In this document: positions 29,971 through 42,308 of the stretch, in pieces
Layout: every line of letters starts with the position of its first letter
Position numbering within the stretch: position 1 is the stretch's first letter
From: Dysosmobacter sp.
Lineage (GTDB): Bacteria; Bacillota; Clostridia; Oscillospirales; Oscillospiraceae
NCBI GenBank assembly: GCA_026169195.1
Contig: JAPFEH010000038.1
Coordinates: 1 to 64,000 of the forward strand
DNA length: 64,000 nt
Direction of reading: 5' to 3'
Position numbers and translations under genes: made by a program
Notes under the pieces: generated by a model
Seen by the model: only the letters and a program-made list of their open reading frames with translations
Database searches by the model: none
What the model was told of the DNA's origin: nothing

Positions 29971-30017
29971 GATAGGCGTTATGTATACTGACCGATTTGA
30001 ACCGATGGAGGCTGCCT

Positions 30018-33000
30018 ATGAAAAATTGTTTCCAAAAAGCATTGTCCCTGCTGCTGGCATTGACGCTGGTGTGCGCCCTGACACTGCCTGCTGCCGCTTC
30101 GGAGGCATTGGGAGAAGATCTGGCCGGACGGGAGATCCTTTTGAATGAGGAGACCCAGCTCTCCACCAACGTGTTTTGGAGTACGGCGTACTCTGATCTG
30201 CGCAGGGAGAATTTGATCACCTACACCCCCAACAAGGATGTGACGCCCATCGTCACCTTCGGCGGTGCGTTGACACAGCGGTCTACCGTTACAGCCGCGG
30301 CCCGGGAGCTGGAGAAGCAGGGCTATCGGGTGGTAGCCGGCATCAACGGTGATTTTTATAATGTGGGGACCGGACTGCCCATCGGCATCGTGGTGACAGA
30401 GGGACAGCTTCGCAGCAGCGATGCCGGATATTATGCGATCGGTTTCCGGAAAGACGGCAGCGCCATTCTGGGAAAGCCCGCTGTCAAGGCAACGGCGGAT
30501 CTGGGCTACGGCGTGGATGACGGCTTTGGAAATCAGACCCGGTATGTGCGTACCGTTGCCGGAGTCAATAAAGCCAGAGTTTCCACCGGCGGGATTTATC
30601 TGTATACCTATGACTTCAATGACCGCCATACCACCGGCAATACAGAGCCGGGGATCGACGTGGTCTGCTCCATTGAAGATGGAGAGGTTGCCATTGGCGG
30701 GACGGTCACCTTGCGGGTGGAACGGGTGCTGGAGGCTGCCAAAGCTACGGATATCCGGCCCGACGAAGTTGTGCTGTCGGTCAATCTGAAGTCTGATGCC
30801 TATCATGTAGATGCCCTTCGGGGGCTTTCTGAAGGCGGGGAGATCACGCTGCAATTCACTCCTGCCGACAAAGCGTGGGCAGATGTAGAGTATGCCGTAG
30901 GCGCCCTGTATGCTTTGGTGGAAAACGGACAGGTGGTTTCCGGACTGCAGGCGGGAGCGAATCCCCGCACGGCTGTGGGACAGAAAGCGGATGGAACGCT
31001 GATTTTCTACACCATTGACGGCCGCCGCTCCGGCCATTCCATCGGCGCGTCCATGGAGCAGGTGGCAAAGCGGCTGATCGAATTGGGCTGCGAGACCGCA
31101 CTTTGTCTGGACGGCGGCGGCTCGACCACCTTGTCCGTTACGGAGCCGGATGAGCTGGAGGCAAAGGCTGTCAACACCCCCTCCGGCGGCAGTGAACGGG
31201 CTGTGACCAATCAGGTGTTTCTGGTTGCGGACGGGGAACCCACCGGACGGCTGTCTCATTTCTATGTAAATCCGGACAATACCTATGTGCTGGCGGGCAG
31301 CAAGGTCAACATCTCCGCTGCCGCAGTCGATACCAATTACATTCCCATGGAGGAGGAGTGTGAGCTTTCTGCCTCGGACGGTGAACTGGACGGGCACGTG
31401 CTGACAACGCCCTCCGGCGGCGGAGAGATCACCGTGACTGCCAGACAAGACGGGAAAAAAGGCTCTGCGGTGGTACATGCCATCGAAACGCCGGATGATG
31501 TGGCGATCCGCAACGGCAGCGGCACCATTCTTACGGAATTGTCGGTGGCCCCCGGTTCCACCACAACGCTGACGGCCACAGCCGCATATCGCCACCTGCC
31601 CTTGAAGGCGGATCCGGAGTGCTTTACTTGGACAGTCAGCGGAGAGATCGGAACGGTGGATGAGCAGGGAATCTTTACTGCGGGAACACCGGGCCAAGGT
31701 ACCATTACCGTCTCTGCCGGAGGAAAAAGCGCGTCTGTTTCTGTTACGGTGTCCCAGCTGGCGCTCAAGACCGTGGAGGACTTTGAGCAGAAGGAGACGG
31801 TGTTCAGCGGCGGCAGCGGCAGCGGCCTGAGCATCCAGCGTGAGCGTGCTGCGGATCTGGTCCGTATGGGACATGGCGCTGCCCGCGTTGCGTATACGCT
31901 GGAAGGAACAGATGACAGAACCGCCAGATGGAATCTGGATCAGCCCATTACAGTCAGCCCCAACGTATACAGCAGTCTGACCTTGTGGGTCTATGGCGAT
32001 CAATCCGGCAATACGCTGTCTCTCGTGTGCAGTGACGCAGAGAGCGGGGAGCGGATCGTGCCTGCTGCACTGCTGGACTTCACGGGTTGGAAACAGGTCT
32101 CCGTGGAACTGGGCACGGGCTTTGCGGTCAGCGGACTGCAGGTCAGCGGACCGGAGCCGCTGGTGTATGATGACGGCATGGGGAACATGATCGAGGAGTA
32201 TCCTGACAGCGTTCTGAACGGAACCATCTATCTGGATCAGATGGTGGCCTCCTTCGGCGGGGCTGTGGACCAGACGCCCCCTGTGGTGAAGCTGTCCGTT
32301 CAGGACACGAAGCTGACGGCAGTAATCACCGACCAAATGGATGGAACGCTGCCGGAATCTGCCGTTTCCGTGACTTGGGACGGTGCGGAGCAGGACTTCT
32401 CTTATAACGCTGCTTCCGGTGCGCTTTCAACGTCTCTGGTCTCCGACGGCCGTCCGCACCGGATCACTGTGACGGCGCGGGATGCGTCCGGAAACATCGG
32501 CAGAGCCTCTTATGATGTTCCTGTGGCAGGAGATTATCAGCTTTCCTTTACCGACACCAAGGGGTATTGGGGCGCCAATTACGTGGAGTTCCTGTATACC
32601 TCCGGAATCACGACCGGTTACAGCGACGGCAGCTTCCGTCCGGGACAGAATATCACCCGCGCCCAGTTTTCCGTGATGCTCTACCGCTATCTGGGGCTGG
32701 ACGCTTCCCGGTATGAGGATGTGGAGCTGCCCTTTGCAGATAACAGCAAAATCGCCGATTACGCAGTACCTGCGGTGAAGGCCCTGTATACAGAAGGGAT
32801 CATCAACGGCACTGCCGGCAGGGACGGACAGCTGTATTTCAATCCCAATGATTCCCTGACACGGGCGCAGGCGGCGACGATGATCGGCCGCACACAGACC
32901 AAGGGATACGCGCTGGCAGAGCTGAATTTCACGGATGCCGGAAAGATCCCCGCCTATGCTGCGTTTTATATCCGCACCATGGCTGCGCAGGGGGTGATCG

Positions 33001-33083
33001 GCGGCTATTCCGATGGCAGCTTCAAGCCGAACAGTCCCATTACCCGCGGACAGATGGCAAAAATTCTGTATAACCTGATGTGA
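30018..33083 (+). CDS. secreted phosphodiester glycosidase-domain protein with SLH anchor
   Basis: 1021 residues. Signal peptide (ALSLLLALTLVCALTLPAAA). Residues about 60-410 are a NAGPA-type phosphodiester glycosidase domain: VAGINGDFYN near the start and the hallmark CLDGGGSTTLSV near its end. Next come Ig-like/BIG-type modules (about 415-580, GTITVSAGGKSASVSVTVS), a carbohydrate-binding-like module (about 590-760), a further Ig-like stretch, and three SLH domains (FTDTKGYWGANYVEFLY, then LPFADNSKIADYAVPAV, then FTDAGKIPAYAAFYIRTM). Related domains uncover mannose 6-phosphate in animals and trim wall phosphodiesters in bacteria, so action on teichoic-acid-like glycans is plausible. ATG chosen behind GGAGG. 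Confidence 0.88.
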   Translation: MKNCFQKALSLLLALTLVCALTLPAAASEALGEDLAGREILLNEETQLSTNVFWSTAYSDLRRENLITYTPNKDVTPIVTFGGALTQRSTVTAAARELEKQGYRVVAGINGDFYNVGTGLPIGIVVTEGQLRSSDAGYYAIGFRKDGSAILGKPAVKATADLGYGVDDGFGNQTRYVRTVAGVNKARVSTGGIYLYTYDFNDRHTTGNTEPGIDVVCSIEDGEVAIGGTVTLRVERVLEAAKATDIRPDEVVLSVNLKSDAYHVDALRGLSEGGEITLQFTPADKAWADVEYAVGALYALVENGQVVSGLQAGANPRTAVGQKADGTLIFYTIDGRRSGHSIGASMEQVAKRLIELGCETALCLDGGGSTTLSVTEPDELEAKAVNTPSGGSERAVTNQVFLVADGEPTGRLSHFYVNPDNTYVLAGSKVNISAAAVDTNYIPMEEECELSASDGELDGHVLTTPSGGGEITVTARQDGKKGSAVVHAIETPDDVAIRNGSGTILTELSVAPGSTTTLTATAAYRHLPLKADPECFTWTVSGEIGTVDEQGIFTAGTPGQGTITVSAGGKSASVSVTVSQLALKTVEDFEQKETVFSGGSGSGLSIQRERAADLVRMGHGAARVAYTLEGTDDRTARWNLDQPITVSPNVYSSLTLWVYGDQSGNTLSLVCSDAESGERIVPAALLDFTGWKQVSVELGTGFAVSGLQVSGPEPLVYDDGMGNMIEEYPDSVLNGTIYLDQMVASFGGAVDQTPPVVKLSVQDTKLTAVITDQMDGTLPESAVSVTWDGAEQDFSYNAASGALSTSLVSDGRPHRITVTARDASGNIGRASYDVPVAGDYQLSFTDTKGYWGANYVEFLYTSGITTGYSDGSFRPGQNITRAQFSVMLYRYLGLDASRYEDVELPFADNSKIADYAVPAVKALYTEGIINGTAGRDGQLYFNPNDSLTRAQAATMIGRTQTKGYALAELNFTDAGKIPAYAAFYIRTMAAQGVIGGYSDGSFKPNSPITRGQMAKILYNLM

Positions 33084-33322: not shown

Positions 33323-33871
33323 TTGCAAAAACGCAGCCACAAACTTTTGGCATCCGCCCTGCTGCGCAGTCATCAGGGTTTTTGTTCCAGACGGTATGAG
33401 TGGGCCTTTCTATTTGGATCCTTTCAGCCGGACTGCAATCCCTTTACATATCTGAAGGGCTCCCGGCGGGCAAAGCGGCTTGGCGGGCACAATTTTTCCA
33501 ATTCCCAGCCTTATATTAACGAACGGATCCGCCGTCTCAACCAGCGCAGCCGGTGGAGCATGTGGCAGTATTATACACTGGGGAAACTGACCCATTATCT
33601 GGCGGACGCCTTTACGTATCCGCATAATGAAAACTGGCCGGATACCATGATGGACCATCACCGGTATGAAACGGATCTGCGCCGGTCTCTGGCGGATCAT
33701 CTGGACCGGCAGGCTCTGCGCCGCCGTCAGCGCAGTCAGGATCTGGTGGAAGCCATAGATCAGCTGCATTTGCAGTATATGAACTCCCGCTCGAATCTGG
33801 AGCAGGATATCCGCTATATTTTGGAGGCCACAGGGCTTTTGATGGCCGGCTGCCTGCCCAACGCTGCCTGA
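33323..33871 (+). CDS. zinc-dependent phospholipase C-like protein
   Basis: 182 residues, no clear signal peptide. The His/Asp pattern HNFSN, KLTHYLADAFTYPHN and MDHHRYE resembles the metal-binding helices of the zinc phospholipase C / S1-P1 family, which is often annotated for small clostridial proteins of this type. Catalytic function is not established. ATG or TTG starts are close together; ATG-equivalent start follows GGAGG. A -10 like TATACT lies about 35 bp upstream. Confidence 0.7.
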   Translation: MQKRSHKLLASALLRSHQGFCSRRYEWAFLFGSFQPDCNPFTYLKGSRRAKRLGGHNFSNSQPYINERIRRLNQRSRWSMWQYYTLGKLTHYLADAFTYPHNENWPDTMMDHHRYETDLRRSLADHLDRQALRRRQRSQDLVEAIDQLHLQYMNSRSNLEQDIRYILEATGLLMAGCLPNAA

Positions 33872-33929: not shown

Positions 33930-33958
33930 TTTTCATTTGCACCGTAAGGTGCTATGCT
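33930..33958 (+). promoter_or_regulatory. promoter of the aromatic amino acid operon
   Basis: TTTTCA (33930-33935), 17-bp spacer holding the dyad GCACC-GTAA-GGTGC, TATGCT (33953-33958). Transcription is predicted to start about 25 bp before the leader peptide ATG. Confidence 0.6.
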
Positions 33959-33989
33959 TTAAACAATCAAAGAAAAAGGAAGTATCTCC

Positions 33990-34088
33990 ATGATCCGTTC
34001 CACCCGTACTTTTGCATACCGTTATTTCGGCTTTACCTATTTTTATGGTAAGGCTTATTTCGGTTTGGCTGAAAGCACCCGGGTGTAA
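33990..34088 (+). CDS. Phe/Tyr-rich leader peptide of the aro operon attenuator
   Basis: A 32-codon open frame with AAAAAGGA 9 nt before its ATG. Residues 8-24 read FAYRYFGFTYFYGKAYF: five Phe and five Tyr in 17 residues, and no Trp. The amino acids match the end products of the operon that follows (pheA and tyrA branches). Codons 24-28 contain the 5' strand of an antiterminator, and an intrinsic terminator follows 34 nt after the stop. The frame is too short and too skewed to be a normal protein; its expected role is to report Phe-tRNA and Tyr-tRNA charging by ribosome stalling. Confidence 0.9.
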   Translation: MIRSTRTFAYRYFGFTYFYGKAYFGLAESTRV

Positions 34089-34139
34089 GTGTTGGTCTTG
34101 TCAGAGACTACCGGTATACCAAGGCCCGCAGCCAAATCG
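34030..34139 (+). promoter_or_regulatory. pause hairpin and antiterminator of the aro attenuator
   Basis: Two mutually exclusive pairings can be drawn. GCTTTACC (34030-34037) pairs with GGTAAGGC (34047-34054) inside the Phe/Tyr codons, a likely pause hairpin. CGGTTTGGCTG (34061-34071) pairs over 11 bp, with one G-U, with CAGCCAAATCG (34129-34139), which takes away the 5' arm and loop of the terminator. A ribosome stalled on Phe/Tyr codons would leave 34061-34071 free and favour read-through; one that reaches the stop would hide it. Confidence 0.8.
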
Positions 34140-34154
34140 GCTGCGGGCCTTTTT
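34121..34154 (+). terminator. attenuator terminator before aroF
   Basis: GGCCCGCAGCC (34123-34133) and GGCTGCGGGCC (34139-34149) form an 11-bp stem with a 5-nt loop followed by TTTTT. It lies between promoter and aroF, 30 bp before the aroF ATG, so it controls rather than ends the operon. Confidence 0.92.
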
Positions 34155-34183
34155 GCATGAAAATTTTAAGGAGGACGTTACGT

Positions 34184-35197
34184 ATGATCGTCATTTTGAA
34201 GCATAACCCCAACCGTGACCAGCTGGAGAGCCTGATCAACTGGCTGCAGGAAAAAGGCATTATCATTCATACCAGCATCGGTGAGGCCCACACCATTCTG
34301 GGACTGGTGGGAGATACCTCCAAGCTGGATATGGATTTGATCGCCGCTCTGGATATCGTGGAGGACGTGAAGCGGGTTCAGGAACCTTACAAAAACGCCA
34401 ACCGCAAGTTCCATCCGGAAGACACGGTCATTCCGGTGGGCAATACCCGGATCGGCGGCGGCACCCTGACCATCATGGCAGGCCCCTGCTCCGTGGAATC
34501 GGAAGAGCAGGTGGTGGCGATCGCCAAGGCCGTCAAGGCCAGCGGCGCCACCATGCTGCGGGGCGGGGCCTTCAAGCCCCGGACCTCTCCCTACTCCTTT
34601 CAGGGGCTGGGGGCCACGGGACTGGAATATTTGAAGGTTGCCCGTCAGGAGACCGGACTGCCCATTGTCACCGAGCTGATGGATCTGAGCCAGCTGCCGC
34701 TTTTCAAGGATGTAGACGTCATTCAGATCGGCGCCCGCAATATGCAGAACTTTGACCTTCTCAAAGCGGTGGGGCATCAGGACAAGCCTGTGATGATCAA
34801 ACGGGGCATGTCCGCCACCTATGAAGAGTGGCTCATGAGTGCGGAATATGTCATGGCGGGCGGCAACGAGAACGTGATCCTCTGTGAGCGGGGCATCCGG
34901 ACCTTTGAAAGCTACACCCGCAATACGTTGGATCTGGCTGCCATCCCTGTGCTGCGCAGGCTGACCCACCTGCCGGTCATCATCGATCCCAGTCATGCCA
35001 CCGGCAAGAGCTGGCTGGTGGAGCCTCTGGCGCTGGGCGCGGTGGCAACGGGCTGCGACGGATTGCAGATCGAAGTCCACAACGACCCTGCCCACGCCCT
35101 GTGCGACGGGCCGCAGTCTTTGAAGCCGGAGCAGTTTGACGCTCTGACCGCCAAGCTGCTGAAGCTCCACCAGACGATGAAAACATTGGAGGAATGA
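34184..35197 (+). CDS. aroF: 3-deoxy-7-phosphoheptulonate synthase (DAHP synthase)
   Basis: First step of the shikimate pathway: PEP plus erythrose 4-phosphate. 337 residues of the type I-beta/KDO8PS-like class: an N-terminal ferredoxin-like regulatory domain (about 1-70, MIVILKHNP...) as in Thermotoga DAHP synthase, then the TIM barrel with MAGPCSVESEEQ, GGAFKPRTSPYSFQG, QIGARNMQN, KRGMSATYEEW and the metal ligands in IIDPSHATGK. The N-terminal domain of this class binds Tyr/Phe in studied relatives, so enzyme feedback may add to attenuation. ATG behind AAGGAGG. Confidence 0.95.
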   Translation: MIVILKHNPNRDQLESLINWLQEKGIIIHTSIGEAHTILGLVGDTSKLDMDLIAALDIVEDVKRVQEPYKNANRKFHPEDTVIPVGNTRIGGGTLTIMAGPCSVESEEQVVAIAKAVKASGATMLRGGAFKPRTSPYSFQGLGATGLEYLKVARQETGLPIVTELMDLSQLPLFKDVDVIQIGARNMQNFDLLKAVGHQDKPVMIKRGMSATYEEWLMSAEYVMAGGNENVILCERGIRTFESYTRNTLDLAAIPVLRRLTHLPVIIDPSHATGKSWLVEPLALGAVATGCDGLQIEVHNDPAHALCDGPQSLKPEQFDALTAKLLKLHQTMKTLEE

Positions 35198-35199
35198 GC

Positions 35200-36036
35200 A
35201 TGAAAATCGGAATTGTCGGTCTGGGACTGATCGGCGGGTCCATGGCAAAGAGCATCAAAGCCCGCACAGCCCACACGGTCTACGGTGCGGATCTGGATCA
35301 CGAGACCATGATGCTGGCCAGAATGTGCGGGGCCATCGACGGGCCGCTGACAGAGGAGGCCCTGCCGCAATGCCAGCTGCTGCTGGTCGCCATTCGTCCC
35401 GCAGCAGCAGTGGAGTGGATCCGCACCCATGCCGGCAGCATCGGCAAATCTGCCATTGTTGTGGACCTTTGCGGTGTGAAGCGGACGGTGGTGAATGAAA
35501 TCACCCCCATTGCCCGGCAGTTTGGATTTTCGTATATCGGCGGACATCCCATGGCAGGCAGCGAACGAAGCGGGTTTACCGCCGCCAGCGACAGCCTGTA
35601 TGCGGGAGCGTCCATGATCCTGACGCCGGACAAGCGGACAGATATGCAGCTGCTGGAAACGCTCAAGGCCTTTTTCCTTGACATCGGCTTTGCAAATCTG
35701 ACCTTCTCGGATCCGGAGGAGCATGACCGGATCATCGCCTTTACCTCCCAGCTGGCGCATATCGTTTCCAGCGCTTATGTCAAGTCTCCCGAGGCGCAGC
35801 GCCGCAGGGGATTTTCAGCCGGCAGCTTTCAGGACATGACCCGGGTGGCCCGGCTGGACGAGGCCATGTGGACGGAACTGTTTCTGGATGATGCCGACTA
35901 TCTTACCAAAGAGCTGGACGTGCTGATCGGGCACCTGAATCAATATGCGGAGGCTCTGCGGAATCGGGACGGCGATACCCTTCAGGCGCTTTTGAAAGAG
36001 GGACGGGAAATGAAAGCCACCGCAGGCGGAAATTGA
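35200..36036 (+). CDS. tyrA: prephenate dehydrogenase
   Basis: Oxidative decarboxylation of prephenate to 4-hydroxyphenylpyruvate, the Tyr branch. 278 residues: NAD-binding GIVGLGLIGGSMAKS at the start, GGHPMAGSERSGF in the catalytic core, then the helical dimerisation domain (FTSQLAHIVSSAY). No C-terminal ACT domain, so feedback by Tyr is not obvious. The second ATG (35200) is chosen because GGAGGA lies 7 nt before it; the first overlaps the aroF stop. Confidence 0.93.
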   Translation: MKIGIVGLGLIGGSMAKSIKARTAHTVYGADLDHETMMLARMCGAIDGPLTEEALPQCQLLLVAIRPAAAVEWIRTHAGSIGKSAIVVDLCGVKRTVVNEITPIARQFGFSYIGGHPMAGSERSGFTAASDSLYAGASMILTPDKRTDMQLLETLKAFFLDIGFANLTFSDPEEHDRIIAFTSQLAHIVSSAYVKSPEAQRRRGFSAGSFQDMTRVARLDEAMWTELFLDDADYLTKELDVLIGHLNQYAEALRNRDGDTLQALLKEGREMKATAGGN

Positions 36037-36120: not shown

Positions 36121-37191
36121 ATGATGTCCTCCATACAAACGATCCAAGTTCATACCCTGCCATCCTACGAGGTGACCATCGGAAGCGGTCTGCTGGCGGA
36201 TTGCGGTCAGCGGCTGCGGCGGGTGCTGCCCCTCTGCCGTGTGGCAGTGATTGCGGACAGCACGGTGGCTCCTTTATATTTGGAGCAGGTTTGCAGCAGT
36301 CTGCAGGCGGCCGGATTTTCCGTTTGCAGCTACTGTTTTCCCGCCGGAGAGCGCCACAAGAACATGACCACGTTTGCCGCCATTCTGGAATTTCTGGCGC
36401 AGCAGCACCTGACCCGCTCAGACTGTGTGGCGGCGCTGGGGGGCGGCGTGACCGGAGATATGGCGGGGTTTGCCGCTGCCTGCTATCTGCGGGGGATCCG
36501 GTATGTCCAGCTGCCCACCACGCTGCTCTCCGCCGTGGATTCCTCCGTGGGGGGGAAAACGGCCATCGATCTATCGGCGGGAAAAAATCTGGCGGGGGCC
36601 TTTTTGCAGCCTGCCGCCGTGATCTGTGATACGGACTGCCTCCGCTCCCTTCCGGCAGCGATGTTTGCAGATGGCGCGGCGGAGGCCGTCAAGACCGGAG
36701 TCTTGTCGGATGCGCAGTTCTTTTCCGACTTGGAGGACGGCGCGCTGACCAAAGCGCCGGAAGCGGTCATCGCCCGGTGTGTCCGGTATAAAGCCGGTGT
36801 GGTAGAGCGGGATGAAACCGAGCAGGGCGAACGGAAACTTCTGAATCTGGGGCACACCGTGGGCCACGCTATTGAGCGGTGCAGCGGCTATGCCATCCCC
36901 CACGGTCACGCCGTGGCGACGGGGCTGGCGGTTCTTGCGCGAAGCGCGGAAGCATTGGGATGGACGGAGGAGCCGGTGGCGGCCCGTATTGCCGCCTGTC
37001 TTGCAGAAAACGGCCTGCCCACTGGAACGGCGTATTCTGCCGAAGCCCTCGCGGATGCCGCCCTTGCGGATAAAAAGCGGATGGGGGACACCATCACGCT
37101 GGTGGTTCCCAAACGGATCGGCCGGTGTGAGCTGAAAAAAATTCCGGTGACGGAGCTGCTTCCTGTCATTCGGGCAGGACTGGAGGAGTGA
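36121..37191 (+). CDS. aroB: 3-dehydroquinate synthase
   Basis: Second shikimate step, NAD- and zinc-dependent cyclisation of DAHP. 356 residues. Motifs: FPAGERHKN, LGGGVTGDMAGFAAA, PTTLLSAVDSSVGGKTAID, the zinc-site region LLNLGHTVGHAIE and IPHGHAV. ATGATG start behind GGAAGGAG, 84 bp after tyrA. Confidence 0.97.
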   Translation: MMSSIQTIQVHTLPSYEVTIGSGLLADCGQRLRRVLPLCRVAVIADSTVAPLYLEQVCSSLQAAGFSVCSYCFPAGERHKNMTTFAAILEFLAQQHLTRSDCVAALGGGVTGDMAGFAAACYLRGIRYVQLPTTLLSAVDSSVGGKTAIDLSAGKNLAGAFLQPAAVICDTDCLRSLPAAMFADGAAEAVKTGVLSDAQFFSDLEDGALTKAPEAVIARCVRYKAGVVERDETEQGERKLLNLGHTVGHAIERCSGYAIPHGHAVATGLAVLARSAEALGWTEEPVAARIAACLAENGLPTGTAYSAEALADAALADKKRMGDTITLVVPKRIGRCELKKIPVTELLPVIRAGLEE

Positions 37192-37193
37192 AC

Positions 37194-38438
37194 ATGGACA
37201 TTCGCATTACGCCGGCAGCCCTGACCGGAACGGTGACGCCGCCGCCCAGCAAATCCATGGCCCACCGGCTGCTGATCACGGCTGCCCTGAGCGGCGGCCG
37301 CAGCGTGATTTCGGGCTTGGCAGACTCTCAGGACATTCTTGCCACCCGCCGCTGTCTCACCGCGCTGGGCGCCCGGATCGACGATGTAGCTCCGGGCACG
37401 GTGGAGGTACGGGGTTTGGGCAGCGCCATCGTGGAGGCCGGTCCCGCCCCGATTCTGGACTGCGGGGAGTCCGGCTCGACACTCCGCTTTTTGATTCCCG
37501 TGGCGCTGCTGGTGAACGGTCAGGCAGAATTTGTCGGCCACGGCCGGCTCATGGAGCGGCCATTGAAGCCCTATGAGACTCTGTTTCGGGAGAAGGGCAT
37601 CGTCTGGAAGCTGGAAAACGGCGTTCTGGATCTGGACGGCGGGAAGGGGTATGACGATTACGCCCTTTCCGCCGGAGCGTACCGCCTGCCGGGGAACGTA
37701 TCCAGTCAATTCTTCACGGGGCTGCTCTTTGTCCTGCCCCTTTTGGACGGGGACTCCATGCTGATTCCCACCACACCGCTGGAGAGCATCGGCTATCTCA
37801 ACATGACACGGGAGGCCCAGCAGCGGGCAGGGGTGGTCAGCGATTGGCAGGGGGACACGCTCCTGATCCCCGGAAACCAGCGCTACCAGCCCTTTGAAGC
37901 GGAGACGGAGGCGGACTGGTCTCAGGCGGCATTCTGGTACGCCGCTGCATTTTTGGATCATTCCGTGACGCTGTCCGGACTGAACCCCGCTTCTTCACAG
38001 GGCGATCAGGTCATCAGTGAACTTTACTGGAAGCTGGCGCGTCCCGGCGATACGGAGATCGACCTCTCCGGTTGTCCGGATCTTCTGCCGCCGCTGGCGG
38101 TCATGGCGGCGGTACGGTCCGGAACCACCCGCTTCGTGAATGCCGCCCGCCTGCGGATGAAGGAGAGCGACCGTCTCGCCACCACCGCCGCGCTGCTGAA
38201 GGCGTTGGGAGGACGGGTGGTGGAACGCCCCGACGGTCTGGATGTGCAGGGAGGCACCCGTTTTTCCGGCTGCACCGTGGACGGCGCCAATGACCACCGG
38301 ATCGTCATGGCGGCTGCCATCGCCGCCACCCGCGCGTCCCGTCCCGTTACCATTTCGGGAGCGGAGGCCGTCAACAAATCCTATCCCTCCTTCTGGGAGG
38401 AATATCAGCGTTTGGGAGGTGTCATCCATGTCCTCTGA
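37194..38438 (+). CDS. aroA: 3-phosphoshikimate 1-carboxyvinyltransferase (EPSP synthase)
   Basis: Joins PEP to shikimate 3-phosphate. 414 residues. PPSKSMAHRLLI at the N-terminus, CGESGSTLRFLIPVAL (the LxxGNAGTxxR-equivalent region with an ES for NA change typical of class II-like clostridial enzymes), RLRMKESDRLA and GANDHRIVMAAAI. The ATG at 37194 follows GGAGGAGTGAAC; a GTG two codons earlier overlaps the aroB stop. Confidence 0.96.
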   Translation: MDIRITPAALTGTVTPPPSKSMAHRLLITAALSGGRSVISGLADSQDILATRRCLTALGARIDDVAPGTVEVRGLGSAIVEAGPAPILDCGESGSTLRFLIPVALLVNGQAEFVGHGRLMERPLKPYETLFREKGIVWKLENGVLDLDGGKGYDDYALSAGAYRLPGNVSSQFFTGLLFVLPLLDGDSMLIPTTPLESIGYLNMTREAQQRAGVVSDWQGDTLLIPGNQRYQPFEAETEADWSQAAFWYAAAFLDHSVTLSGLNPASSQGDQVISELYWKLARPGDTEIDLSGCPDLLPPLAVMAAVRSGTTRFVNAARLRMKESDRLATTAALLKALGGRVVERPDGLDVQGGTRFSGCTVDGANDHRIVMAAAIAATRASRPVTISGAEAVNKSYPSFWEEYQRLGGVIHVL

Positions 38439-39519
38439 GTTCGGCCGTGTTTTGCGGGTATCCGTGTTCGGCCAGTCCCATGGACGGGCCATCGGCGTGA
38501 ACATCGACGGCCTGCCTGCCGGAGAGCCTGTGGATGAAGAGATGCTGCAGGCGTTTCTGAATCGCCGGAAGCCCGGCGGGAGTCCGCTGTCCACCGCCAG
38601 AAAGGAGGCGGACCGGCCCGTGTTCCTGTCCGGATTGGAAAATGGCAGGACCTGCGGCGCGCCGCTGTGCGCCATCATAGAAAACAGCGACCAGCACTCC
38701 GCAGATTATCAGGAGCTCTTTGACCTGCCCCGCCCCGCCCATGCGGATTATACGGCTTGGGTCAAGTGGGGCGGTCAGGCGGATATGCGGGGCGGCGGAC
38801 ACTTTTCCGGCCGCCTTACGGCGCCGCTTTGTATTGCCGGAGGCATTGCCAGACAGATTCTGGCCCGACGGGGGATTTTTCTAGGAGCGCACCTGAGCGC
38901 TGTGGGCACGGAGGAAGACCGGCGCTTTCCGCTGCATCCCACGGCCGCTTTGTTTGACGAGATCGCCGCAAAACCCTTTCCGGTGCTGGATGATGCGGCG
39001 GGAGAGCGGATGCAGGCTCTGATTCTGGAAGCCCGTCAGGCCGGCGATTCCGTGGGCGGCATTGTTGAATGCGCCGTTGTGGGGCTGCCTGCCGGCCTGG
39101 GCGATCCCATGTTTGACGGCATGGAAAACCGTCTGGCGGCGGCACTGTTCGGGATTCCGGCTGTCAAAGGCGTGGAGTTCGGCGCGGGCTTCGCGTCTGC
39201 CCGTCTCCGTGGATCGGAAAACAACGACCTCTTTGCGGTGGAACACGGACAGATCGTCACGGAGAGCAACCGGTCAGGCGGAATTCTGGGAGGCATCACC
39301 ACAGGGATGCCCGTGACCATGCGGGTGGCGGTAAAGCCCACGCCGTCCATTTCCCGACCGCAGCAGACGGTCCGGCTTTCCGCCATGGAACCGGCGGAGC
39401 TGACCATTCGCGGCCGGCATGACCCCTGTATCGCCCACCGGGCCGTTCCGGTGGTGGAAGCCGTCGCTGCGGCAGTAGTACTGGATTTGTTGTTGGAGGG
39501 ACATCATGGAACTTTCTGA
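38428..39519 (+). CDS. aroC: chorismate synthase
   Basis: FMN-dependent final common step giving chorismate. 363 residues. Motifs: RVSVFGQSHGRAIGV, RKPGGSPLSTARKE, ADYTAWVKWG, GGGHFSGRLTAPL, GVEFGAGFASA, NRSGGILGGITTGMP and RGRHDPCIAHRAVPV. The ATG overlaps the end of aroA by 11 nt. Confidence 0.97.
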   Translation: MSSEFGRVLRVSVFGQSHGRAIGVNIDGLPAGEPVDEEMLQAFLNRRKPGGSPLSTARKEADRPVFLSGLENGRTCGAPLCAIIENSDQHSADYQELFDLPRPAHADYTAWVKWGGQADMRGGGHFSGRLTAPLCIAGGIARQILARRGIFLGAHLSAVGTEEDRRFPLHPTAALFDEIAAKPFPVLDDAAGERMQALILEARQAGDSVGGIVECAVVGLPAGLGDPMFDGMENRLAAALFGIPAVKGVEFGAGFASARLRGSENNDLFAVEHGQIVTESNRSGGILGGITTGMPVTMRVAVKPTPSISRPQQTVRLSAMEPAELTIRGRHDPCIAHRAVPVVEAVAAAVVLDLLLEGHHGTF

Positions 39520-40642
39520 GATTCGAACCAAGATTGATGCTGTGGATGAGCAGCTGCTGAAGCTGTTTCTGGAGCGGATGTGTCTGGCGGAGGAGGTTGC
39601 CGCTTATAAAAACGAGCATCATCTGCCCATTCTCAATAAGGAGCGGGAGCGGGCTGTGCTGGCAAAGGTAACGGAACAGGCAGGAGACAAGGAACGCTAT
39701 GCCTATCACCTCTTTTCCACCCTGTTTGAGCTGGCGCGTTCCAGACAGGCGGAGCTGATTTCCGCGCCGACCCGTGTGGCCGCGCAGGTGGAGGCCTCGC
39801 TGGCTGCCGGTGATCCGGTTTTTCCGCAGACAGGTCTGGTGGCCTGTCAGGGCGTGGAGGGCGCCAACAGTCAGGTGGCCTGTGACCGGCTGCTGCCCCG
39901 CGGCAATCTGGTGTATGTGAAGACCTTTGACGCGGTGGTTGCCGCCGTGGAGTCCGGACTTTGCAAATTCGGCGTGCTGCCCATCGAAAACAGCTCCAAC
40001 GGCTCCGTCCGGGCAGTCTATGAGCTGCTGCGGGATCACCGGCTCTCTGTGGTGCGTTCCACCCGTCTGTGCATCCGCCATGAATTGCTGGCGCTGCCGG
40101 GCGTCAGGATGGAGGAAATTACGGAAATCTATTCCCATGAGCAGGCCATCGGCCAGTGCGGAAAGTTTTTGAACGGGCTCAACGGCGTGCGGGTGATCCC
40201 CTGCGACAACACTGCGGCGGCAGCCAGCATGGTTGCGGAAAGCGGGAATCGCCACGCAGCTGCCATTTCCTCCCATCCCTGCGCGGCGCTGTACGGACTG
40301 GAGTGCATTCATGAGGGGATTCAGGACAGCGATAACAACTATACCCGCTTTTTCTGCGTAACGAAGGATCCGGTCATTTATGCCGGCGCCAACCGGATCA
40401 GCCTGATTCTGGGCTGCGACAACAAGCCGGGCGCGCTGTATGAGATCCTGTCCAAGCTGGCGGCGCTGAATATCAACATGACCAAGCTGGAATCCTGTCC
40501 GGTCAGCGGACGGAATTTTGAATTCATGTTCTTCTTGGAGCTGGAGGCTTCCGTGCAGGAGCCGGGTGTGCTTTCCATGCTGCAGGAAATGGAGCGCAGC
40601 TGCGCCAGCTTCCATCTTCTGGGCAGCTATGCGGAAGTGTGA
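39506..40642 (+). CDS. pheA: bifunctional chorismate mutase / prephenate dehydratase
   Basis: P-protein of 378 residues: chorismate mutase (about 1-88, IRTKIDAVDEQLLKLFLERM, with the KNEHHLPILNKERE helix), prephenate dehydratase (about 105-285, GVEGANSQVA, LPIENSSNGSV, catalytic TRFF as NYTRFFCVT) and a C-terminal ACT domain (about 297-370, NKPGALYEILSKLAALNIN) expected to bind Phe. The second Phe-binding motif reads ESCP rather than ESRP. Overlaps aroC by 14 nt. Confidence 0.95.
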   Translation: MELSEIRTKIDAVDEQLLKLFLERMCLAEEVAAYKNEHHLPILNKERERAVLAKVTEQAGDKERYAYHLFSTLFELARSRQAELISAPTRVAAQVEASLAAGDPVFPQTGLVACQGVEGANSQVACDRLLPRGNLVYVKTFDAVVAAVESGLCKFGVLPIENSSNGSVRAVYELLRDHRLSVVRSTRLCIRHELLALPGVRMEEITEIYSHEQAIGQCGKFLNGLNGVRVIPCDNTAAAASMVAESGNRHAAAISSHPCAALYGLECIHEGIQDSDNNYTRFFCVTKDPVIYAGANRISLILGCDNKPGALYEILSKLAALNINMTKLESCPVSGRNFEFMFFLELEASVQEPGVLSMLQEMERSCASFHLLGSYAEV

Positions 40643-40645
40643 GCC

Positions 40646-41953
40646 ATGCCTGAAAAGATCTATGGACTGCTGGGCCGCAAACTGGGTCACAGCTGGTCCG
40701 TGCCGATCCATACGGCGCTGGGCTGCGGAGACTACCGCCTTTATGAGCGGGAGCCGGAGGAGCTGGAGGCGTTTCTCCGGAACGCTGACATTGGCGGACT
40801 GAATGTTACCATTCCCTATAAGCGGGCGGTGATGCCCTGCTGCGACGTGATCGATCCCGTGGCGCAGGCCATCGGCAGCGTCAATACCCTGACCCGCCGG
40901 CCGGACGGAAAGCTGTATGCCTTCAACACCGATGCCGCAGGCTTTCGCTATATGGCAGAGCGGGCCGGCATTTCCTTTGCGGGGAAAAAGGCGGTCATTC
41001 TGGGCACCGGAGGCGCCTCGCTGACGGCGCAGGCGGTGGCGCGGAGCATGGGAGCCGGAGCGGTGGCGGTCATCTCCCGCTCCGGACCGGATCACTATGG
41101 AAATCTGAGCCGCCATGCTGACGCAGAGATCGTGGTCAACACCACTCCGGTGGGGATGTTCCCCGACACCGGAGCTTCTCCGGTGGACCTGACGGTGTTT
41201 CCCAAGTGTGCCGGTGTGCTGGATGTGATCTACAATCCCCGCCGCACCGCGCTGCTGCTACAGGCAGAGAAGCTGGGAATTCCCTGCTCGGACGGTCTTC
41301 CCATGCTGGTGGCACAGGCCAAAGCCGCAGAGGAGCATTTTTTTGAACGGACGATTCCGGACAGCGAAAACGAGCGTATTCTGGCACAGCTGCGGCGGGA
41401 GACCGGAAACATCATTTTAATCGGAATGCCCGGCTGCGGCAAGAGCACCGTGGGAAAGGCCCTGTCAGCCCTGACAGGGCGGGAGGCCATCGATCTGGAT
41501 GAATGGATCGTGGAAAAGGCCGGACGGACGATTCCGGAGATTTTTGCGTCAGGCGGCGAGGCGGAATTCCGCGCCTTGGAGCGGGAGGCTGTGACTGAGA
41601 CCGGAAAGCTCTCCGGAAAAATTTTGCTGACCGGCGGTGGTGTGGTGAAGGATGCGCGCAACTATGCGCCGCTCCATCAAAACGGGCGGATCTATCATCT
41701 GGTGCGGGATCTGGCGCTGCTGCCCACAGAGGGGAGACCGCTGTCGCAAAACGCGGACCTTGCGGCGATGTGGGCAGAGCGGTCACCGCTGTATGCGGGG
41801 TTCCGGGATGCTGTGATCGACAATTCCGGCGCGGTGGAGGATACCGCTGCCGCCATTTGGAGGGATTTTTGTGAAGATACTGGTGCTCAACGGCCCGAAC
41901 ATGAACCTGCTGGGCATCCGCCAGCCGGAGATTTACGGCAGGACGACGTATGA
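40646..41953 (+). CDS. fused shikimate dehydrogenase - shikimate kinase
   Basis: 435 residues joining two pathway steps. The N-terminal part (about 1-250) is AroE: LGHSWSVPIHTALG, the substrate site NVTIPYKRAVM, NTDAAGF and the NADP loop LGTGGASLTAQA. The C-terminal part (about 255-420) is AroK: Walker A LIGMPGCGKSTVGKAL, DLDEWIVEKAG, and GGGVVKDARN. Both sets of key residues look intact, so it should convert 3-dehydroshikimate to shikimate 3-phosphate. The last 28 residues overlap aroQ in another frame and are low-complexity, so they may be dispensable. Confidence 0.93.
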   Translation: MPEKIYGLLGRKLGHSWSVPIHTALGCGDYRLYEREPEELEAFLRNADIGGLNVTIPYKRAVMPCCDVIDPVAQAIGSVNTLTRRPDGKLYAFNTDAAGFRYMAERAGISFAGKKAVILGTGGASLTAQAVARSMGAGAVAVISRSGPDHYGNLSRHADAEIVVNTTPVGMFPDTGASPVDLTVFPKCAGVLDVIYNPRRTALLLQAEKLGIPCSDGLPMLVAQAKAAEEHFFERTIPDSENERILAQLRRETGNIILIGMPGCGKSTVGKALSALTGREAIDLDEWIVEKAGRTIPEIFASGGEAEFRALEREAVTETGKLSGKILLTGGGVVKDARNYAPLHQNGRIYHLVRDLALLPTEGRPLSQNADLAAMWAERSPLYAGFRDAVIDNSGAVEDTAAAIWRDFCEDTGAQRPEHEPAGHPPAGDLRQDDV

Positions 41954-42308
41954 AGACCTGTGCGGCATGATCCGCGCGGAAGCGGAGCGGCTTGGAATAC
42001 AGGTGTCCTTTTTTCAATCCAACCATGAAGGGGCGCTGGTGGATGCCATTCATCAGGCGTATTTTGACGGGGTGGACGGCATCGTCTTCAATCCCGCCGC
42101 CTACACCCACACCAGCGTGGCGCTGCTGGACGCCGTGAAGTCCGTGGGCATCCCCACGGTAGAGGTCCACATCTCCGATCCGGACCAGCGGGAGGAGTTC
42201 CGACACGTGTCCTATATCCGCGCCGCCTGCACCGCCACCATCCGGGGGCATGGTCTGGAGGGATATCTGGAGGCGCTGCGGCTGCTGGCGGAAAAAAGCT
42301 CCGGTTGA
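41871..42308 (+). CDS. aroQ: 3-dehydroquinate dehydratase, type II
   Basis: Third shikimate step. 145 residues of the dodecameric type II class: LVLNGPNMNLLGIRQPEIYG with the catalytic Tyr loop, SNHEGALVDAIH, NPAAYTHTSVALLDA, EVHISDPDQREEFRH and GHGLEGYLEAL. GTG start with GGAGGGA 5-7 nt upstream, lying 83 nt inside the end of the aroE/K gene. Last gene of the operon. Confidence 0.96.
   Translation: MKILVLNGPNMNLLGIRQPEIYGRTTYEDLCGMIRAEAERLGIQVSFFQSNHEGALVDAIHQAYFDGVDGIVFNPAAYTHTSVALLDAVKSVGIPTVEVHISDPDQREEFRHVSYIRAACTATIRGHGLEGYLEALRLLAEKSSG

Follow-up and report, generated by a model that had tools for sequence, protein, structure and literature searches.

A putative Phe/Tyr-rich leader-peptide attenuator before the shikimate operon of a Dysosmobacter genome

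The leader and the operon behind it

We studied the leader of a shikimate (aro) operon in Dysosmobacter sp. (Bacillota; Clostridia; Oscillospirales; Oscillospiraceae). The operon lies in a window of 64,000 nucleotides, the whole stretch of DNA analysed here (positions 1 to 64,000 of contig JAPFEH010000038.1, assembly GCA_026169195.1), which belongs to a genome assembled into 90 contigs (2.37 Mb, completeness 95.6%). The genes are arranged on one strand in the order aroF-tyrA-aroB-aroA-aroC-pheA-aroEK-aroQ, with overlaps or gaps of no more than 84 bases (Table 1). Family matches assigned to them all seven steps of the shikimate pathway, as a preliminary description of this DNA had claimed, and both branch enzymes, tyrA and pheA, with which the amino acids of the leader (see below) had been said to agree. 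In the aroE-aroK frame the shikimate dehydrogenase matches fell within residues 1-257 and those of shikimate kinase within 242-410; the 83-base overlap of aroQ with this frame looks real because the family match covers aroQ from residue 1-2. No second DAHP synthase of the aroF type was found in the genome, type II synthases being outside the search.

The leader contains a short frame whose stop codon is 95 bases from the aroF start. Its translation is MIRSTRTFAYRYFGFTYFYGKAYFGLAESTRV, with ten aromatic codons (F8, Y10, Y12, F13, F15, Y17, F18, Y19, Y23 and F24), i.e., five for phenylalanine (Phe), five for tyrosine (Tyr) and none for tryptophan (Trp), and a purine-rich, Shine-Dalgarno-like stretch lies ahead of it. 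This composition, the length of 32 codons and the confinement of the aromatic codons to positions 8-24 agree with the preliminary description. The frame is presumably translated.

Folding of positions 33960-34165 gave -72.2 kcal/mol, whereas 200 shuffles averaged -51.2 kcal/mol (z -4.65). The antiterminator consists of the 11 pairs described before, one of which is G-U, and its distal partner, segment 3, is part of the 5' arm and loop of the terminator. The terminator, previously given as an 11-bp stem with five T, is present with its TTTTT, and its stem proved longer, with 13 pairs.

Table 1 Features of the leader and operon; all on the positive strand of the window
Feature	Positions	Remarks
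Likely leader promoter	33930-33958	-35-like TTTTCA 33930-33935, 17-nt spacer, extended -10-like TGCTATGCT with hexamer at 33953-33958; by sequence reading
Shine-Dalgarno-like AGGAAG of leader peptide	33977-33982	Purine-rich; by sequence reading
Leader peptide frame	33990-34088	32 codons; stop TAA 34086-34088
Control codons 8-19 (F8 to Y19)	34011-34046	Truncated-transcript folding: predicted stalls leave antiterminator arm free
1:2 (anti-antiterminator/pause) hairpin core	34029-34037 with 34047-34055	In GFT and GKA codons
Antiterminator 5' arm (segment 2)	34061-34071	Codons 24-28 (FGLAE); pairs with segment 3, 34129-34139
Intrinsic terminator	34121-34154	Stem 34121-34133 with 34139-34151, overlapping TTTTT 34150-34154
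Shine-Dalgarno AGGAGG of aroF	34169-34174	By sequence reading
aroF, DAHP synthase with ferredoxin-like domain	34184-35197	Family matches
tyrA, prephenate dehydrogenase	35194-36036	Pfam; NCBIfam matches below cut-offs
aroB, 3-dehydroquinate synthase	36121-37191	Family matches
aroA, EPSP synthase	37188-38438	Best NCBIfam match 267.8 bits, below cut-off of 287.25
aroC, chorismate synthase	38452-39519	Frame listed from 38242; family match from residue 71 (38452), start codon provisional
pheA, chorismate mutase + prephenate dehydratase + ACT	39506-40642	Pfam; NCBIfam matches below cut-offs
aroE-aroK fusion	40646-41953	One frame; NCBIfam matches below cut-offs
aroQ, type II 3-dehydroquinate dehydratase	41871-42308	Family match from residue 1-2

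Conservation, covariation and spread of the leader

Genus, family and class are used here as the analysis tool assigns them. A match to aroF was present in 76 of 86 genomes of the genus, and 75 upstream regions were taken, that of the window included; the region of G020, with 166 nt upstream, was omitted. Seventy of the 75 carried a [SG]F[TAR]...GKA-like motif before aroF, and these form the rows of alignment A1. Conservation of frame and pairing in close relatives, whose absence would by the preliminary description have refuted its proposal, was found. The net insertion or deletion between codons 4 and 27 was 0, 3 or 6 bases in all 70 leaders, and all had at least two Phe and at least two Tyr codons in the control window before GKA. 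Tyr numbered 2-5 per control window throughout, occupying codon 10 in 70/70 and codon 12 in 65/70; Phe and Tyr replaced each other at codons 18, 19 and 23. Trp occurred in one control window and, over the whole leader, in five of the 70. Codons of the 1:2 core were nearly fixed (TTT 70/70, ACC 69/70, GGT 69/70, AAG 69/70, GCT 70/70); the Tyr17 codon varied (TAT 36, TAC 23). A Shine-Dalgarno-like 4-mer preceded an in-frame ATG in all 70 rows under a loose rule. In 67 rows a hexamer from a set resembling the -10 element lay 40-140 nt ahead of the SFT-like codons, a count made without chance control, in which one placement (L098) is wrong and falls inside the frame. Independently of the motif, 67 of the 74 genus upstream regions of at least 300 nt had a frame in which 20 codons include 8 or more Phe/Tyr, as did none of their 74 reverse complements and 0.6% of dinucleotide shuffles.

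The preliminary description had proposed a search for compensatory changes in the stems, and its outcome differed among helices. The 1:2 core was paired in 99.7% of cells of A1 and is so nearly invariant that covariation is uninformative there; the proposed pause hairpin is therefore well conserved, with no covariation in its favour. The terminator gave strong support: 92.5% of cells were paired, one outer pair being unpaired in 50 of the 70 rows, and 8 of the 13 pairs and 45 cells were doubly changed (altered on both sides of the pair), against 3.6 pairs and 8.4 cells in shuffles, none of 500 reaching either value. For the antiterminator, paired in 95.1% of cells, double changes within the genus were modest (four cells, reached in 6 of 500 shuffles). 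Its support came from a family set, A2, of 24 rows including the window, from which loci failing a strict motif were left out (8/25 in the family and 60/70 further named loci; of the ten matching named loci, L014, L060, L074 and L079 were also left out). Here the antiterminator was paired in 86.7% of cells, compared with at most 47.1% when its arms were slid, and 29 cells were doubly changed against 14.5 in shuffles (0/500 as high). In the same set 11 of the 13 terminator pairs were doubly changed (8.3 in shuffles, 5/500 as high), as were 69 cells (23.3 in shuffles, 0/500 as high).

A further comparison needed no alignment. Among 267 upstream regions, 201 had a Phe/Tyr-rich frame with a terminator after it, and 134 divergent representatives were retained, 16 of them from the genus set. 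The segment past the first aromatic codons paired with the 5' arm and loop of its own terminator at a mean of -15.2 kcal/mol, compared with -11.5 kcal/mol for mismatched terminators of other leaders, and none of 20,000 permutations was as low. Since base composition could produce better pairing with the own terminator, each segment was also compared with 100 shuffles of itself: 60 of the 134 leaders outdid 95% of their shuffles, where about seven were expected. A smaller set, now superseded (195 loci, 128 representatives), had given -15.2 against -11.4 kcal/mol and 63/128.

Beyond the genus, samples of the family and of the class (Clostridia, to judge from its named members) were drawn from larger groups (300 and 291 genomes). 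At least 7 Phe/Tyr in 20 codons were found before aroF in 69 of 84 family upstream regions (an 85th, L172, was too short); reverse complements gave 4 of 84 and shuffles 3.9%. When 37 additional families of the class were sampled by one genome each (L305, with 199 nt, left out), 23 regions reached this value against 6.6% of shuffles, and 20 exceeded their own shuffles at 0.04 or better. A covariance model (R1) was built on a 34-row alignment (A3) of 34 chosen loci, from which the loci failing the strict motif had likewise been left out. Under strict filters and at E 1e-5 it had matches in 18 of the 291 class genomes. Outside the window 14 of the 17 matches lay directly before aroF, and the other three had no aroF in the stretch taken. 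The model does not pick up every leader: many family members have other tails, KVKVIRAAK-like, and in six there is a GWARF motif. Named close relatives of the window's aroF included several Oscillibacter, among them O. valericigenes, whose strain Sjm18-20 has its leader in L011.

Some observations accompany this survey. Other genera of the family have a second type of aroF leader in which a KVKVIRAAK-like tail stands in place of GKAYFGLAE (L203, L208, L212, L214, L224, L225, L229, L233, L236 and L255); it perhaps represents the same segments in another sequence. On three contigs (L032, L057 and L070), under the labels Thermoguttaceae, Lentisphaerae and Kiritimatiellae, there is an aroF with 64-68% identity to that of the window, preceded by a Phe/Tyr-rich leader and a matching terminator, which reflects either transfer or mislabelled bins. 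A second copy of the leader was also sought in the genome of the window with R1, and none of seven further matches up to E 10 was accepted. One of the seven lay antisense to the terminator of the leader itself; four loci that were read (L261, L262, L263 and L265) had no leader-like frame by eye, the first two and the last being terminator-like hairpins; L264 is the L261 hairpin on the opposite strand, and L266 was left unread.

Order of folds and competing explanations

Partial transcripts were folded with a ribosome placed at successive codons, its footprint ending 14 bases past the first base of the A-site codon. With the RNA ending at 34141, the antiterminator had a probability of 0.99-1.00 while the ribosome stood at any of codons 2-20, dropping to 0.68 at codon 21, 0.45 at codon 22 and 0.00 thereafter. 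Three bases later (RNA end 34144) it was 0.11 without a ribosome; with one, it ranged over 0.09-0.68 for codons 2-4 and 0.89-1.00 for codons 5-20, then fell to 0.33 at codon 21, 0.01 at codon 22 and 0.00 from codon 23. In the genus set the modelled antiterminator exceeded 0.5 in 56 of the 70 leaders with a stalled ribosome and in 22 of 70 without one; removing the ribosome lowered it by more than 0.05 in 48 leaders and raised it by as much in none.

We consider it very probable that the leader is a transcription attenuator of the pheL/trpL type, mediated by the ribosome and placed before the aro operon. Computation gives directly the frame, the pairings with the conservation and covariation that they show, and the order in which the folds arise; that the frame is translated, that charged tRNA matters, that both amino acids count and how large the effect would be are inferred. 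Transcription from the promoter at about 33930-33958 would yield a leader RNA encoding the Phe/Tyr-rich peptide. If charged tRNA-Phe or tRNA-Tyr ran short, the ribosome would stall at one of codons 8-19 and leave segment 2 free to pair with segment 3; the terminator would then come too late to form and the operon would be transcribed. With both charged tRNAs plentiful, the ribosome would cover segment 2 and reach the stop codon, and the terminator would form. Without a ribosome, the GFT/GKA hairpin (34029-34055) and outer pairs would tend to hold segment 2, and termination would be favoured. The preliminary description had both tRNA pools set the pathway at once; that Phe and Tyr both count is, in our judgement, no more than fairly probable.

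Several results weigh against this proposal. A simple scanner for promoters and terminators listed neither the leader promoter nor the leader terminator; in our reading, the promoter matches the consensus at 8 of 12 bases where the limit is 9, and the terminator was missed because the rule needs T's after the stem, and this stem pairs into the T run. In the folding, the antiterminator still had a probability of 0.98 without a ribosome at RNA ends 34140-34142, and at 34147 it was no more than 0.01 in every state, which leaves an interval of only a few bases in which ribosome states are separated. When the finished transcript was folded with a ribosome at each codon, the terminator always won, with no discrimination; control must therefore be kinetic, as it is in known attenuators. 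Of the aromatic codons, the eight from F8 to Y19 lie in the antiterminating zone and the other two, Y23 and F24, do not, and stalls at codons 5-7, ahead of the first aromatic codon, fold alike, i.e., the zone is not confined to Phe/Tyr. In 14 of the 70 genus leaders the probability with a stalled ribosome was 0.5 or less.

The comparative evidence has weak points too. Five of the 75 genus upstream regions lack the motif: L148 is truncated, L154 and L156 have another Phe/Tyr-rich frame, and in L149 and L151 no Phe/Tyr-rich frame was found. The three doubly changed antiterminator pairs in A1 were equalled by 33 of 500 shuffles, and in A2 the doubly changed pairs (5 vs 4.6) and further pair types (15 vs 15.3) were as in shuffles; the shuffle statistics, moreover, ignore relatedness among the leaders. 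Codons outside the core helices are also rather fixed (codon 10 TAC 68/70, codon 13 TTT 63/70), and third-base constancy was judged by codon counts without a formal test of synonymous constraint. At the class level, 14 of the 37 families stayed under 7 of 20 and eight of the 37 reverse strands reached 7.

Among other explanations, the nearest is the same attenuator with only one amino acid sensed, probably Phe, the Tyr codons being passengers or modulators. This is what a passage of PMC11802643 describes for the AroR leader of Corynebacterium glutamicum, which precedes an aroF operon and contains Phe-Tyr-Phe: Phe limitation raised transcription and Tyr availability had no effect. We regard it as unlikely here, as Tyr codons are conserved as well as those for Phe in all 70 leaders and the operon has tyrA beside pheA. 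The strong conservation of the C-terminal GKAYFGLAE in the genus could instead point to an arrest peptide of the TnaC kind, whose nascent chain would sense free Phe or Tyr and stall the ribosome. The RNA pairing accounts for that conservation, however, because the same codons supply both the 1:2 hairpin and the arm of the antiterminator; across the family the sequence diverges, whereas Phe/Tyr richness and pairing with the terminator arm persist; and stalling at high amino acid would be expected to raise, not lower, expression of a biosynthetic operon. An arrest peptide is thus very improbable.

It is even harder to believe that the terminator merely ends an upstream transcript and that the short frame is incidental. 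A zinc-dependent phospholipase C-like gene does end at 33871 on the same strand, but the terminator begins 250 bases downstream, past the promoter-like element of most genus rows, its arm covaries with a segment inside the frame, and the frame is conserved in phase. Equally remote, in our view, is control by a riboswitch, a T-box or a protein-binding RNA. Aromatic genes of Firmicutes are often under T-boxes or TRAP, and the genome has 16 T-box matches elsewhere; no Rfam family reached its gathering score anywhere in the window, though, and the helices ahead of the terminator fall within the codons of the frame. Under a lax threshold the strongest match on the leader was the trpB motif, at 26.7 bits where 59 are needed (34074-34160). 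This match and those to Thr_leader and Trp_leader, all below gathering scores, extend over the terminator and in some cases also the end of the frame, and were rejected.

T-boxes, tryptophan and known systems

Seven of the 16 T-box matches were above the cut-off, and none of the 16 was on the contig of the window. Fifteen loci were taken and the next gene tested in ten; the genes following were glyS, leuA, a TrpB-like enzyme, ilvC, tyrS, pheS and hisS, together with a MetN-like transporter (below cut-off), an aminotransferase and an O-acetylhomoserine sulfhydrylase. The matches before tyrS (89.4 bits, E 4e-20) and pheS (88.9 bits, E 5e-20) were just under the curated cut-off of 93. Because T-box matches precede these two genes, control of the tRNA synthetases for Phe and Tyr seems to rest with T-boxes in this genome, and the biosynthetic operon seems to use a translated leader.

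Trp synthesis looks lost in the genome of the window. Indole-3-glycerol phosphate synthase (IGPS) had no match in it, and trpA gave no more than a 72-residue match, interrupted by a TAG, on another contig (L322); the gap in the pathway is either decay or a matter of holes in the incomplete genome. IGPS was above cut-off in 15 of 86 genus genomes and, at E 0.001, in nine of the 42 most complete, and Trp synthesis looks lost in most of the genus. The idea that the leader is free of Trp simply for this reason is weakened, since genus-mates bearing IGPS can have a Trp-free leader (genome G082, leader L147).

A Trp codon in the leader was associated with trpC/IGPS in the genome (10/15 vs 20/77, p 0.0049, on corrected upstream stretches). 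By subset, p was 0.057 in the own family and 0.38 with one genome per other family, values uncorrected for descent; an earlier count was stronger (9/12 vs 19/74, p 0.0015). We take the association as a weak lead only. Trp-bearing leaders themselves were seen in two places. Six aroF upstream regions of the own family (L237, L238, L243, L246, L252 and L253) have a GWARF motif with a Trp codon and 6-7 Phe/Tyr in 20 codons, with trpC in two of the six genomes. In other families of the class, aroF leaders with Trp in a W[SGF][FY]-like aromatic run (L297, L304, L307, L316, L317 and L319) possibly sense Phe, Tyr and Trp.

A broader generalization can be offered tentatively, and we would sooner doubt it than rely on it: a family of leader attenuators, spread over the class, might govern entry into aromatic biosynthesis at DAHP synthase and combine several tRNA pools in the manner of an OR gate. 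Their codons would reflect the end products that the cell makes, with Phe/Tyr in lineages that have lost Trp synthesis and Phe/Tyr/Trp in some of those with Trp synthesis retained, and the matching tRNA synthetases would be left to T-boxes, at least in the genome of the window.

The textbook answer for aromatic genes of Firmicutes is T-boxes and TRAP. T-box riboswitches resemble the present leader in that they read tRNA charging by transcription antitermination for amino-acid genes, and matches to them occur in this genome, but they bind tRNA directly, without translation, and the aroF leader has no T-box match. The likeness to pheL-pheA and trpL of Escherichia coli is one of architecture, i.e., a leader with end-product codons, alternative 1:2, 2:3 and 3:4 helices and a terminator before the first structural gene; here, by contrast, Phe and Tyr occur together, the whole shikimate pathway and both branches follow, and the host is of the Clostridia type. 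The AroR-aroF system of C. glutamicum, reportedly treated by Neshat et al. in 2014, likewise has a leader peptide with Phe and Tyr before an operon containing aroF; it differs in that only a Phe-Tyr-Phe run is named for it, that Tyr availability is reportedly without effect, and that its host belongs to the Actinobacteria.

The preliminary description supposed that such a dual leader may be undescribed, which goes too far, since relatives in kind are in print: besides the C. glutamicum aroF leader, these are Phe/Tyr reading frames tied to shikimate genes and an Acholeplasma aroF frame. A figure legend (Fig. 6) of a five-genome study that includes Clostridium novyi mentions two candidate upstream open reading frames (uORFs) with Phe and Tyr codons linked to shikimate genes (PMC6429828); compared by that description, they may be the same regulatory family in another lineage. 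The text on uORFC-13-1 in PMC8632094 gives it a possible promoter, a ribosome-binding site and one or more Phe codons directly before an intrinsic terminator and aroF, and proposes attenuation. Set beside the window's leader by this description, not by a consensus match, it differs: its 24 representatives are only from Acholeplasma and environmental sequences, and in that text at least one Phe is named and Tyr goes unmentioned. Leader-peptide attenuators outside Proteobacteria have also been predicted for His in Firmicutes, with His codons, at his operons or hisS-like genes and in other lineages (PMC9413887, PMC2965389). Other papers report a leucine-rich attenuator peptide in Staphylococcus aureus (PMC5794164), the view of its authors that the trpB motif could be an attenuator (PMC11109978), and, for phenylalanine or tyrosine operons of Actinobacteria, that no RNA element was found (PMC1262725). 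No literature title or abstract opening among those searched, most full texts being unopened, mentions this leader for Oscillibacter or the family to which it belongs. Beside these relatives in kind, the leader stands with a rich dual Phe/Tyr content, a whole-pathway operon and a wide spread for which no catalogue entry was found.

If the proposed attenuator is real, one leader would set the complete shikimate pathway together with the Phe and Tyr branches, and ribosome-mediated attenuation would be common for aromatic biosynthesis in Oscillibacter-like and other Clostridia. Since pheS and tyrS of this genome stand behind T-box matches, Phe and Tyr would offer a comparison of two strategies of reading tRNA. 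With the 70 genus leaders and the wider set, dual sensing becomes open to a direct test, and the leader sets are material for an RNA family, Rfam 15 being without a match here.

Two minor features of the window lie apart from the leader. The stretch 29997-33083, upstream of the operon, encodes a large protein that combines SLH with phosphodiester glycosidase (NAGPA) domains. ARAGORN called a tRNA-Met at 38104-38189 on the negative strand, antisense within aroA, which is probably a false positive.

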